From Cohnella algarum (GTDB lineage Bacteria > Bacillota > Bacilli > Paenibacillales > Paenibacillaceae), in contig NZ_JAFHKM010000002.1 in the NCBI RefSeq assembly GCF_016937515.1, positions 2,103,001 to 2,167,000 on the forward strand: 64,000 nt of DNA, read 5' to 3'. Of the stretch, positions 5,818-43,658 are shown piece by piece (position 1 is the stretch's first letter; the number at the start of each line of letters is the position of its first letter). The position numbers and the translations under genes were made by a program. The notes below the pieces were generated by a model. The model was not told the origin of the DNA. It made no database searches and saw nothing but the letters and a program-made list of their open reading frames with translations.

Positions 5818-6183
5818 GGGGGCGTTTTTGGATTCGACGGGGATAGATCGAGCATGGGTAGCGGGTAGTAGGGCTGCGTCTGCTTCACTAACGCGGAAGC
5901 CAATTAAACGGCAAAGCTAAACAACCTTCTCTGGCTCTGGCCGCCTAATAACGGTCACCAGGCTCTTGCCTTCCATCGCCCATGTGGCGGGTTGAGAGCT
6001 CAACTTTAGTGGGATACGCTGTCACATCTCCGCCTGGGGTGTGCTGAAGAAGACAATCAGGCTGACCCGAAGAGCAGCCGGTGACAGGGCGTCTCTAGGG
6101 TGACATCAAATCTGTCACTACACCCGTAGAAGCCTGTGTGGCGTTGTCTTCGGACAGGGGTTCGACTCCCCTCGCCTCCACCA
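5818..6183 (+). ncRNA. ssrA: tmRNA (transfer-messenger RNA)
   Basis: The 5' end GGGGGCG pairs with CGCCTCC (6173-6179) near the 3' end to form the tRNA-like acceptor stem, followed by A and an encoded CCA. The T-arm loop GGTTCGACTCCCC is present, and GGATTCGACGGGGAT near the 5' end is the usual tmRNA start block. The tag reading frame runs 5910-5948 and encodes GKAKQPSLALAA before tandem TAA TAA stops, with the canonical ALAA degradation signal. It rescues stalled ribosomes together with SmpB. Its last 19 bases are repeated three times downstream, marking it as an integration site. Confidence 0.96.
6165..6183 (+). repeat. Attachment-site core, copy 1 (inside ssrA 3' end)
   Basis: ACTCCCCTCGCCTCCACCA is the last 19 bases of tmRNA. 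Identical 19-mers occur at 42928-42946 and 43138-43156, and one with a single mismatch at 24951-24969. Direct repeats of an RNA-gene 3' end are the usual footprint of site-specific integration that restores the RNA gene. Confidence 0.8.
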
Positions 6184-6511
6184 AAACCATCAGAAAAGAC
6201 ACCGCGTTAGGTGTCTTTTCTGCGTTTTCGGTAATTGTGGTGGTTTAAAAAACTTGTGGTTATTGGGTTTTTGCCTTTTCTGACTCTGAATAAGAAATAT
6301 CTCTGATGGTGCACGGGGCGGTGCCACACTTTATACCAGTTTTAATGTCATCCAATAGACGGGCTCGCTCCTTCAACCGTTCCGTTAGAACGCGTCTTGG
6401 TCGAACTGGGTTTTCATTTTTAAAAGGTTCAGCATGAATGTTTAACGGTTGAAAATTGTTCGATTAGTTTACGTGATTTTGTAAAAATGGTTCCAAACAA
6501 TATTTATAATC
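6184..6511. other. Stretch with no intact gene; short minus-strand remnant
   Basis: Apart from the hairpin after tmRNA, the minus strand holds a stop-bounded frame (about 6260-6455) encoding a charged peptide with RRVLTERLKERARLLDDIK. It has no start codon with a ribosome binding site and I cannot name its family; it may be the tail of a lost gene. Nothing else is recognisable. Confidence 0.35.
6192..6225 (+). terminator. Terminator-like hairpin after ssrA
   Basis: AGAAAAGACACC (6192-6203) pairs with GGTGTCTTTTCT (6210-6221) around a short loop, 8 bases after the tmRNA CCA end. A short T-rich stretch follows. It lies inside the integrated DNA if the ssrA 3' end is the left attachment site. 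Confidence 0.7.
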
Positions 6512-6772
6512 TCACATCGTATTAGTATCTATCGAATTTAGTATAGTAGAGATCTCATCCAATTTATTACAAACATCACTAAGACTATCATATAGGCCAT
6601 TGCCTTTGATATCACTTGCTAATGATTCCAACTTATCGTATACATCTGATATCGAATTATAAAGACCTTGTCCCTTGAGTTCCTCAACAGATACTTTTAA
6701 GTCCTCAATGTTTGAATTGATTGAGTAAATTCCGTCCCTAATTTCTTGTAGAACTTCAATTAATTGCTCCAA
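6512..6772 (-). CDS. Small coiled-coil protein downstream of the DUF4011 helicase
   Basis: This ~87-residue acidic protein is nearly all helical. It contains an internal repeat: GQGLYNSISDVYDKLESLASD is echoed by GNGLYDSLSDVCNKLDEIST. I place the start at the TTG at 6772 because GGAGG (6780-6784) lies 7 bases upstream; a longer ATG start at 6793 uses codons inside the adjacent IS21 element. Removing IS21 puts this gene ~45 bases downstream of the DUF4011-type helicase gene on the same strand, so both were probably one operon and the small protein may be a partner of the helicase. The family is not recognised. Confidence 0.6.
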   Translation of the reverse strand: MEQLIEVLQEIRDGIYSINSNIEDLKVSVEELKGQGLYNSISDVYDKLESLASDIKGNGLYDSLSDVCNKLDEISTILNSIDTNTM

Positions 6773-6897
6773 AATAAATCCTCCTAGTGTCACCGCCGGG
6801 ATATAATTGACCCACCAGCGCCGGAATGAAAATGACCCACCCCTGTAGAATATATCTCCTCGAGAATATCGGCCAAGATATTTGGAGAGGAGGAAAT

Positions 6898-8121
6898 ATG
6901 CTAAGGAGTGGGACAGTGATTAGATTACATGAACTTCAAGCTAGCGGCAAGAGTATCCGTGAGATCATGCGGGAGACGGGTCATTCGAGAAATACGATTC
7001 GTAAATATCTTAGAGCCGATGGTATCCCTGAACCCAATCCCCGCAAGAAAAGAGCTTCCAAACTAGATCCATACAAGTCCCAGTTGGATCTTTACTTGGC
7101 CAAAGGAATATTCAATTGTGAAGTTCTACTACGTCTCTTAAGAGAACAAGGATATGGCGGTGGAATTACGATCATCAAGGACTATGTGAAGCCGCATCGT
7201 CCTCCAAAACAGGCGCCGGCTGTGCAACGCTACGAGACGAAACCTGGACAACAAGCACAGGTAGACTGGAAGATTTGCGAGTACGTCGATCTAACCGGGG
7301 AGGTTCGGAAGATCCCTGTCTTTGCAATGGTTTTGGGCCACTCCCGCGCGACGTATATGGAGTTTACGAAACGCTGTGACATCCACAGCTTTCTACGCTG
7401 CTTGATGAACGCCCTAGAATACTTTGGCGGCGTCCCGAAAACGATGCTCACCGACCAGATGAAAACCGTCATCTTGGGCATGGGCGACGACCGAAAGCCG
7501 CGCTGGCATCCGTTGTTTGAAGACTTCGCCGCAGCCATCGGCATGATCCCTAAGGTCTGCCGCGTACGACGTCCACAAACCAAAGGCAAAGTCGAACGAA
7601 GCGTTCAGTTCATCGAGCAGAACTTCATGCCAGGAAGACAATTCACGGATCTCGGTGATCTGAACCGCCAGGCCCGGAAGTGGTGTGACGAACAAAATCG
7701 CCGCATTCATGGCACAACCGGCGAAAGACCATTCGACCGTTTGGCCAATGAAGCGCTTGGGCCGTTGCCAACTCCGGAGCGCTGGGAAAAGTACCGATTC
7801 GAGCCTCGAAAGGCCAGCCGGGACGGATTCGTCAGCTACGATGGCGTACGGTACGGCGTTCCTTGGCGGTTCAGTGGCCGTGATGTGAAGGTGCGTGAAG
7901 TGAATGGCATAGTCGAGATTTATTCTGAGAAGCAGCTCATTGCCCAGCATGAAAAGCAATACCGATCACGAACGCTTGTCATGTGCGAGAACCAGTACAC
8001 CAACCTGAGTACGGCGCAAGGCTATGCCTACCCAAGGCCTCAAGGGCTTCAGATACCTGAACAAGATGTGGAGGTGCGATCTCTCGATGTTTATGATCGC
8101 CTTGTGGAGGTGGGCGCATGA
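6898..8121 (+). CDS. istA: IS21 transposase IstA
   Basis: The 407-residue DDE transposase has an N-terminal helix-turn-helix ([17 protein letters not shown], [10 protein letters not shown]) and a catalytic core with [22 protein letters not shown] and [15 protein letters not shown] for the D, D and E positions. I start it at the ATG at 6898 behind GGAGGAAAT. Its stop overlaps the istB start as ATGA, giving the translational coupling usual in IS21. Confidence 0.95.
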
Positions 8122-8921
8122 TTGCACTAGAACAAGCTCGCCTCCGTCTGGAGGAACTCGGCTTAGAACAAGCTGCCCAAGCTCTCGATGCAAAGTTAGA
8201 GGCCGCCGGCAGAAGCCAAAGCACTTACCTCACTTTCCTAAACGAGTTGCTGGAGGCTGAGATTTTGGAGCGTCAACGCCGAAACGTTGAGGTACGAATG
8301 AAACTTTCGCATCTACCGTATCGACGAACGCTAAGTGATTTCGACTTCACGTTTCAACCTGGGCTTGATGAGCGCCTGATTCGTGAACTTGCTGCATTAA
8401 CATTCGTTGGGAGGCAGGAGAATGTTCTCTTTCTCGGCCCTCCCGGCGTCGGGAAGACCCATTTAGCCGTCGCAATTGCGATGGAGGCGATTGGACAAGG
8501 CTTGCCGGTGTATTTCGTTTCGCTCGCTCAACTAGTTAGCGATTTGCGAAAGGCGTACGAGGAAAACCGATTGGAGAAGCGAATGAGGGTTTATCTTCGT
8601 CCTCGGATACTCATCGTCGACGAGGTGGGCTATCTCCCCCTGGACCCACTGGGTGCGAACCTGTTTTTCCAACTGGTCTGTGCTCGGTACGAGAAAAGCA
8701 GCATGATCCTGACCAGTAACAAAAGCTTTGGTGAGTGGGGCGAACTTATGGGAGATGCCGTTCTTGCAACGGCCGTGCTTGATCGCCTCCTCCATCATTC
8801 CCACGTAGTAAACATCCGTGGGAACAGCTACAGGCTTAAAGAAAAACTAAAAACCGGAATCTATTCGTCACCAAGCGCACAGGTGGGTCAAAATTATCCC
8901 GGCGCTAGTGGGTCAATTTAA
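8118..8921 (+). CDS. istB: IS21 helper ATPase IstB
   Basis: This 267-residue AAA+ protein has Walker [16 protein letters not shown] and Walker [12 protein letters not shown]. It helps IstA in target capture and strand transfer. It overlaps istA by 4 bases and ends 14 bases before the element's right terminus, so its last residues are encoded by the terminal repeats. Confidence 0.95.
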
Positions 8922-8966
8922 TTCCGGCGTTGACACCTAGTAATTGTGGTTAGAAAAAATTAACGA

Positions 8967-42776: not shown

Positions 42777-42927
42777 GGAGCGAGGGGTGGCGTCTCCCCA
42801 TCCGAAGGAGGACATTGGGGTTCGACCGCGCGCAGGGAGCGAAGCGGACGAGCACGGCATCTGATTCAACCGCAGCGCTCTGCTTCGTCGGGTTGACTTC
42901 GTCAGCAAGTTTAATCGGGAATCATAT

Positions 42928-42946
42928 ACTCCCCTCGCCTCCACCA
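42928..42946 (+). repeat. Attachment-site core, copy 3
   Basis: ACTCCCCTCGCCTCCACCA is identical to the last 19 bases of tmRNA. A rho-independent terminator follows at once, just as one would expect downstream of a native ssrA, so this junction may be the old right border of the island. Confidence 0.8.
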
Positions 42947-42950
42947 CGAG

Positions 42951-42980
42951 AAAAGCCGACCGCATGAGGTCGGCTTTTTT
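42951..42980 (+). terminator. Terminator following att core copy 3
   Basis: AAAAGCCGACC (42951-42961), GCATGA, then GGTCGGCTTTTTT (42968-42980) form a strong stem-loop with a T-run. Confidence 0.92.
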
Positions 42981-43074
42981 GCGTGTGGAGCGAGGGGAGG
43001 AGTCTCCCCATCCGAAGGAGGACATTGGGGTTCGACCGCGCGCAGGGAGCGAAGCGGACGAGCACGGCATCTGA

Positions 43075-43658
43075 TTCAACCGCAGCGCTCTGCTTCGTTG
43101 AGTTGGCTTCGTCAGCAAGTTTAATCGGGAATCATATACTCCCCTCGCCTCCACCATGTAAATCCACAACTGTTACTGCTAATACATAATGACCATCGGT
43201 TGACGGTGTAAGTTGTCCTGACGGTGACGGCCAAGTTGTCCGAGTAATGGTGAGAAGGAAGGGAGAATCAAGACAACTCTCCCTGAATGACGCGTTTGAT
43301 CATATGATCGTCGATGATGCGATGTTTGTTCTGCGAACCGTAGATGAGGCTGTGCGTGCAGACCTTGTTAATCAGGCGAGCGGCGCCGCTGGAGAAGCGA
43401 AGAACATCGTCGATCTCAGCCTCCGTAAACACGTCGTGCTCGGCACCGGCGTAGCTCATGTGCCGGGCGATGTACGCGCCGGTCTGCGCTATCGAAGTGC
43501 GGCAGCTTGCATTGCAAGTCGATACGCTGGCAAATTGCCGTGTACGCCTGCAGCCCGAGCCGGTCCACAGCTCGCTCCCCGACCAAGATAAGTGCCAAGG
43601 GATTCTGGGCATCCATCTTGAAGTCAAGCAGGAAGCTAGCGGGCAGGATATTTTAAGA
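43075..43658. repeat. ~585-bp direct repeat, copy 2
   Basis: It matches 24890-25474: att core, spacer, transposon end near 43207 and transposition ATPase remnant. Small indels in this copy shift the ATPase frame twice, so that it is read as the tail of the upstream serine recombinase. Confidence 0.85.
43138..43156 (+). repeat. Attachment-site core, copy 4
   Basis: This is identical to the ssrA 3' 19-mer and lies 112 bases from the end of the serine recombinase frame. The ~580 bp around it are the direct repeat of 24890-25474. Confidence 0.8.

Follow-up and report, generated by a model that had tools for sequence, protein, structure and literature searches.

We analysed a window of 64,000 nucleotides from Cohnella algarum (contig NZ_JAFHKM010000002.1, positions 2,103,001 to 2,167,000) in which the tmRNA gene ssrA is followed by several copies of its own 3′ end. 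The gene (5818–6183, + strand) is intact as judged by ARAGORN and Rfam (RF00023, 180 bits). Its T-loop reads TTCGACT, and the repeated core, ACTCCCCTCGCCTCCACCA, extends from A58 through CCA. This core occurs exactly at 6165–6183, 42928–42946 and 43138–43156 and with one mismatch at 24951–24969, always on the + strand; a sequence repeat search thus bore out the four equally oriented copies that an earlier note on this DNA had listed. In the following, G000 denotes the window's own genome (6.2 Mb) and C2 its contig, other G numbers stand for related genomes, and L numbers for loci fetched from G000 and these relatives. When up to two mismatches were allowed, the core was found at five forward and no reverse places in G000. 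Since a backwards-read control gave no place at all, the repetition is not due to chance. The fifth place (G000:C2:2188822–2188840) lies 21.8 kb past the window and terminates an 88-bp ssrA 3′ fragment (88% identity, BLAST) that is followed by a terminator of its own.

The downstream cores are more than bare stretches of 19 bases, as they form parts of longer repeats. The sequence at 42776–42946 is repeated at 42986–43156 (171 bp, 97%), and the one at 24890–25474 recurs at 43075–43658 (587 bp, 95%). The first pair represents two units of an RNA-like element on the + strand. The first unit (42776–42946) comprises an inverted copy of the ssrA 3′ end, a T-stem strand, an insert and the core, and is matched at 42811–42934 with 127.4 bits by R1, a covariance model built from 31 sequences of the genus, which may miss divergent members. 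A + strand terminator (42947–42985), similar to terminators directly behind ssrA in several relatives, lies between this unit and the second one (42986–43156; R1 43021–43144, 128.7 bits). The one-mismatch core ends a truncated copy of the element (24847–24969, + strand; R1 24847–24959, 45.6 bits). It precedes a left terminator half, TGTAAATCCACAAC, interrupted by the end of an insertion sequence (IS), and this stretch (24970–25474, + strand) is a 95% copy of the flank at 43157–43658. There, the core at 43138 is likewise followed by the half terminator (43157–43170) and the 3′ end of the IS (43157–43634 in total, + strand), with homology of 43167–43634 to five other genomic copies (~76%); a whole terminator is present at C2:2188841. 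Because of the shared 587-bp flank with half terminator and IS remnant, one of the sites 24951 and 43138 is probably a later duplicate of the other. The flank next to ssrA itself, with a terminator at 6184–6224 (+ strand), gave no match to R1. Sequence similar to this flank follows ssrA in G028 and a displaced ssrA fragment in G017 (BLAST against the G028/G017 flanks: 77%, 176 bp, and 81%, 272 bp).

The earlier note had also regarded ssrA as an island hotspot, and this view is supported by the G+C content, which is 61% left of ssrA and drops to 48% behind the gene, by the displaced ssrA 3′ fragment 79.7 kb from ssrA, and by displaced fragments in many relatives; ssrA is a genuine island hotspot. 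The far fragment and the G+C drop at ssrA mark a composite region of ~79.7 kb that lies partly inside the window. The 88-bp fragment is likely the distal border of the island; the 18 kb past it have 50% G+C, so that composition leaves the far end unmarked. Many displaced ssrA fragments begin at about nt 263–290, others further upstream. Fragments of 70–105 nt are present in many relatives, unlike the three inner cores, upstream of which we found no ssrA sequence. The data do not support three integrated elements of 18.8, 18.0 and 0.2 kb in the window with the four cores as their boundaries. The copies at 42928 and 43138 are tandem 210-bp duplicates, and those at 24951 and 43138 share the 587-bp flank, so that the copies do not each stand for a separate island. 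The 0.2-kb segment is the tandem duplicate of a small RNA-like unit. Related species carry this unit too, behind ssrA or tRNA-Ala and often as an array. The terminator after the core at 42928, which had been read as a possible native ssrA border, is indeed present by eye; it does not single out such a border, since by eye all five cores precede a whole or half terminator. The serial scheme had been tied to the downstream copies being island borders, and in part these copies belong to something else. Instead of four borders and three elements, we thus arrive at a single island region, in which the inner cores represent copies of a small T-loop RNA element.

Directly before the displaced ssrA fragment of G000 we noticed a gene pair for a small protein and a Fic/Doc-type protein (G000:C2:2188050–2188755; L047 2050–2755). 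A similar pair precedes an insert-bearing ssrA fragment in G207, a genome from a different family (L188, reverse, 7750–8450), the likeness of the two pairs being judged by eye. At G010:C1:2376181–2377034, two near-complete tmRNA matches stand in tandem, 124 bp apart.

Across the relatives, the order of elements is the 3′ end of the gene from A58, a terminator, an inverted copy of the 3′ end, a T-stem strand, an insert of ~115 nt, and again the 3′ end from A58. The repeated unit (A58 to 3′ end, terminator, inverted 3′ end, T-stem, insert) measures ~190–270 bp, and the insert has ~110–150 nt in most copies and up to ~185; in some cases one unit holds two inserts (L110). In other species of the genus the unit stands directly behind ssrA, either singly or in tandem, with spacings of 208, 209 and 212 bp in G001 and of 215, 213 and 215 bp in G013. 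A second set is found behind tRNA-Ala(GGC), where the units are also ~190–270 bp apart and the core matches the 3′ end of that very gene, including genes without an encoded CCA; a species variant in G016, G033 and G026 reads CCGCTAGGGTCCACCA or is one base off. In most copies the insert sits in a partial T-arm ~55–80 nt behind a host 3′ end, which may be that of the unit before it, of an intact gene or of a displaced fragment. Copy number ranges from zero to many, units next to each other do not always share terminator or lineage, and in some relatives cargo segments of ~1–5 kb lie between units. Among the 103 units that passed the core-score filter, the inverted 3′-end copy fits its own host better in 69 cases and the other host in 13, with 21 ties.

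The insertion point is best seen where the host sequence is still recognisable on both sides. Here, the insert sits between G57 and A58 in the T-loop of tRNA-Ala(GGC) or tmRNA, be it in the gene or in a displaced 3′ fragment, e.g. ssrA 154–345, insert, 347–360 in G207 and tRNA-Ala 17–56, insert, 58–73 in G245. Such a location directly in the T-loop of a host gene or its 3′ fragment applies to 14 of 171 classified copies. This set comprises 86 of 92 R1 matches (the weakest six being omitted), 25 of 52 and 58 of 60 from further sets (the former reduced to avoid places already covered) and two others; G239 is counted twice (L187, L328), the genus loci L104–L123 stand outside the count, and the class of units is the remainder and includes a few copies without a host match. 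Two otherwise complete tRNA-Ala genes are interrupted, in G224 by 131 nt and in G136 by 130 nt. With the insert intact ARAGORN makes no call, whereas after its removal in silico the program reads a tRNA-Ala(GGC) cloverleaf in both, with one remaining anticodon-stem mismatch in G224. The 3′ junction is well conserved, with a pyrimidine (U or C) followed by A58, each in 142 of 148 rows.

The inserts share a fold. In a covariation test with 31 inserts, in which pairs were counted for a hand-written structure, the score was 0.305 versus 0.124 ± 0.010 for shuffled sequences (0 of 500) and at most 0.074 when the structure was slid. The most conspicuous part is helix H, an 8-bp pseudoknot in which a hairpin loop pairs with the eight bases just before the junction. 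Among 148 distinct rows from across the order, of which 146 are complete, at least seven of the eight pairs form in 137 of the 146, by means of 60 distinct helices. Helix H is absent from the model used for the alignment (A2, 150 of 179 matches, including sequences used to build the model), although it was initially spotted by eye in members of the genus, which are themselves among the rows. Both G·U (50 cells, shuffled mean 84) and A·C (7, shuffled mean 57) are below their shuffled means, A·C by far the more so. Since a fold of the opposite strand would tolerate A·C and not G·U, this bias points to a predicted RNA of the host-gene strand. The same bias of G·U over A·C speaks against a fold of the bottom DNA strand, as known from integron attC sites. 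In Rfam 15, only low-scoring matches below the gathering scores and no convincing family were obtained at the inserts; weak tmRNA_permuted matches across ssrA and the first unit are among these sub-threshold hits. No group I match was found at E up to 1 (seven loci) or E up to 5 (five loci). A literature search likewise yielded no title on a T-loop insert element, and the family was thus found neither in Rfam 15 nor among the titles searched.

Applied with stricter filters to 296 genomes (48 genera) of the order, R1 gave matches in 111 genomes and 32 genera. Within the genus, BLAST detects the unit in 31 of 37 genomes; of the six without a match, one (G023) is positive by R1 (L053), and this comparison for empty ssrA sites is one between species, the genomes being those of other species of the genus. 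In overlapping sets of fetched loci, ARAGORN called a tmRNA or tRNA-Ala(GGC) in 13 of 20, 16 of 20, 21 of 30 and 26 of 40; the sole other tRNA called was one tRNA-Lys, in a locus that also holds a tRNA-Ala. Twelve loci without a call comprise two with a complete interrupted tRNA-Ala, six with a host 3′ fragment, two with a short 3′ end and two that are hostless. The best tRNA-Ala(GGC) match in G000 reaches only 1.9e-14. Both host RNAs, tmRNA and tRNA-Ala, are alanine acceptors. A BLAST search of the insert against phages and plasmids gave no match, and of seven viral pattern matches none was good by the model (best 17.1 bits, E 0.005).

Next to the second unit, a large open reading frame on the − strand (43268–45364) encodes a serine recombinase (Pfam PF00239, PF07508, PF13408). 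Only about aa 1–572 are recombinase, as its best homologs end near aa 572; about aa 573–698 are read from the IS remnant, and aa 569–698 match only the IS remnant at C2:2128084. Within ~1.5 kb around the nine closest homologs (50–87% identity) there is neither an RNA match better than E 0.44 nor a tRNA, tmRNA or host core. Because its C-terminus derives from IS sequence and its close kin are found elsewhere, the protein was rejected as the integrase of the core; a deletion at the IS would best account for its position beside 43138. A tyrosine or serine recombinase as constant neighbour of the units was not found in 26 genomes, the tyrosine recombinases being judged among the matches listed; a few recombinases lie 4–32 kb from an array by coordinates (G224, G259, G136). 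A Pfam scan of 60 open reading frames from the window, with the left flank, and from the distal part of the island gave no Phage_integrase match. As a side observation, a family of large serine recombinases (P0002 type, L248–L272) stands beside tRNA-Val(GAC) or tRNA-Ala(GGC) in 16 of 22 loci given to ARAGORN. Several tRNA-Ala fragments begin near nt 17 in the D-arm, and some of these adjoin a recombinase of this type. In 2014, serine integrases were stated not to be known to target tRNA genes (PMC4383910; the papers given by PMC number are drawn on here through parts of their text).

From these data we propose that each downstream core marks the 3′ end of one copy of a small folded-RNA element, which we call T-loop insert, and is not a clean island border, a reading to which we assign a probability of roughly 60%. 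In this scenario, the unit would insert at G57|A58 and give the gene back its 3′ end, as islands that target tRNA genes do, and would then multiply by unequal exchange between the repeated cores. Islands recombining further upstream in the gene may later push the old 3′ end together with its units downstream. In G000, such an island would part ssrA from its former flank by ~36.6 kb, and the older flank appears as if pushed to 42.8 kb, because the ssrA-proximal flank lacks a unit and resembles the flanks of G028 and G017 described above. How the insert comes to be placed between G57 and A58 could involve recombination in trans, an intron-like reaction or RNA-guided insertion. Units within one array are often nearest kin in a tree (the two copies of the window share 97% identity), and an alternating two-unit pattern is seen in G205. 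Tandem exchange therefore explains much of the copy number. On the tree, which is weak, at least 11 changes of host label are needed versus 36.5 in shuffled data, which suggests that inserts tend to stay with one host. As the fold is kept on the RNA strand, a predicted transcript of the unit probably plays a part in its spread or maintenance.

Several points weigh against this proposal. Resolution of the tree is low, 52 of its 106 inner forks being left open, insertion and excision are postulated events, and no recombinase is consistently near the units. The RNA made from the unit is a predicted one, and the inverted 3′-end copy is weaker than the pseudoknot, so that its role is uncertain. Some copies, for example L163 and L206, have no recognisable host sequence nearby. 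Since G224 and G136 also carry an intact tRNA-Ala, their interrupted copies may be dead.

The known system closest in behaviour is that of the Dehalococcoides ssrA islands (DsiB/DsiA), which insert in the middle of the T-loop, are bounded by 20-bp direct repeats, stand in tandem and in some cases lack an integration module (PMC3146451, in part). The T-loop inserts share the mid T-loop position, repeats of about this length and the tandem order, and with the cargo segments between some units they could speak for the classical serial integration of the earlier note, in which each core is the attachment (att) site of an island recombining in the T-loop. The Dehalococcoides islands, however, have a 15-bp upstream motif and a module with a CcrB-like serine recombinase (PMC3146451, in part), whereas here we find an RNA-like pseudoknotted insert of ~115 nt, cargo-free units of ~200 bp, tRNA-Ala as second host and no consistent recombinase. 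A serine recombinase, whether related to DsiB/CcrB or not, does adjoin the core at 43138, and another, unlike it, lies beside a tRNA-Ala fragment and array in G263; yet the kin of the former reside away from ssrA, host cores and the RNA. Neither a pseudoknotted RNA-like family nor a wobble bias on the sense strand is predicted for a double-stranded att site, and many units at a distance of ~200 bp leave no room for cargo. Serial integration is therefore unlikely in our view. Islands that target tRNA genes likewise regenerate the 3′ end of the gene and are followed by displaced 3′ fragments, but those in the Islander collection measure at least 2 kb and carry a tyrosine integrase (PMC4383910, in part), while the units here are gene-free and measure ~200 bp.

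The T-loop of tmRNA genes is also a known site of group I introns, the precise removal of which would restore the loop (PMC11915505, in part). This parallel raises the question of whether the insert is a small ribozyme or a protein-assisted intron in the precursor of tRNA-Ala or tmRNA, the units being relics of interrupted copies. The single T-loop step, the cloverleaves restored in G224 and G136, displaced fragments that carry the insert in place, the pyrimidine–A58 junction and the fold on the RNA strand are all compatible with such an origin. On the other hand, 157 of the 171 copies lie outside any T-loop that can be recognised as the host's, the majority of these following a host 3′ end, and tRNA-Ala is hit as well. 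The group I rules of a U before the 5′ splice site and a G at the 3′ end do not hold in the two full-length genes and 148 rows, where G57 precedes the junction and the last base of the insert is mostly a pyrimidine. Founding group I introns (843) average 293 nt (PMC11915505, in part) versus ~110–150 nt for most copies here. Considering also that no Rfam intron matches the insert and that dependence of a genome on an interrupted copy is hypothetical, we judge an intron-like element distinctly unlikely. A stationary regulatory or decoy RNA gene of the tRNA-Ala and tmRNA transcription units, duplicated by chance, would account for the constant place and direction of the units behind no more than two host genes, the products of which are charged with alanine, and for the spread over 32 of 48 genera. 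It is at odds with copy numbers from zero to many, with copies in T-loops and displaced fragments, and with neighbours that differ in terminator or lineage, and thus is very unlikely.

A more far-reaching version of the T-loop insert proposal, which we regard as quite unlikely, is that of an RNA-encoded mobile element without a protein of its own, whose RNA would guide either its own splicing or a recombinase, supplied by the host or in trans, to G57|A58 of alanine-accepting RNAs. One segment of the RNA, GGGGTTCG, would resemble the left half of the T-arm, another, the inverted 3′ end, would be complementary to the right half, and a loop would pair with the element's own left junction to form helix H, in the manner of a bridge RNA or of a new class of small mobile introns. 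In IS110 elements, a bridge RNA loop indeed pairs with sequence beside the junction (PMC11208160, in part), and the unit has both the sequence resembling the left target and the one complementary to the right target. Unlike IS110, it has no recombinase gene, the ~200-bp units being too short to encode one (a trans-acting recombinase was not searched for), and the pairing can equally be explained as an ordinary pseudoknot. A pseudoknotted insert common to tRNA-Ala and tmRNA is not reported in the consulted parts of PMC3146451 or PMC11915505.

If the downstream cores are T-loop inserts, a widespread structured RNA family lies concealed at places that island finders would report as att sites. This would affect island mapping through false borders, as well as tRNA and tmRNA annotation, as ARAGORN misses both interrupted genes as they stand. 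Should the RNA drive insertion, it would be relevant for RNA-guided recombination or a new intron class.

Immediately upstream of the first unit, a group II intron (40894–42775, + strand; Rfam RF02001, RF01998 and RF00029) with an open reading frame for a reverse transcriptase/maturase (41212–42696; Pfam RVT_1, GIIM) was identified, its 5′ end being estimated by eye. Its 3′ end directly abuts the first base of the unit (42776), and in G036 (L105) a tRNA-Ala unit is followed by what by eye looks like the start of a similar intron. Elsewhere in the island, two inverted copies of a transposon of the DUF6431 / rve-Mu_C / AAA_22 type (9389–12716 and 31216–34543; 99.97% over 3328 bp) enclose a stretch of 18.5 kb. 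Defence-like cargo is found at 12768–18019, 56634–62421 and L046 43–6492, and includes DUF4011 and MTES_1575 nuclease-helicase, an SNF2 helicase with DUF4391 and a DNA methylase, RE_endonuc and GmrSD_N proteins. Finally, the gene of an SLH-domain protein (37740–40013) contains a 299-bp direct repeat (81%, 210-bp shift) at 38095–38603.

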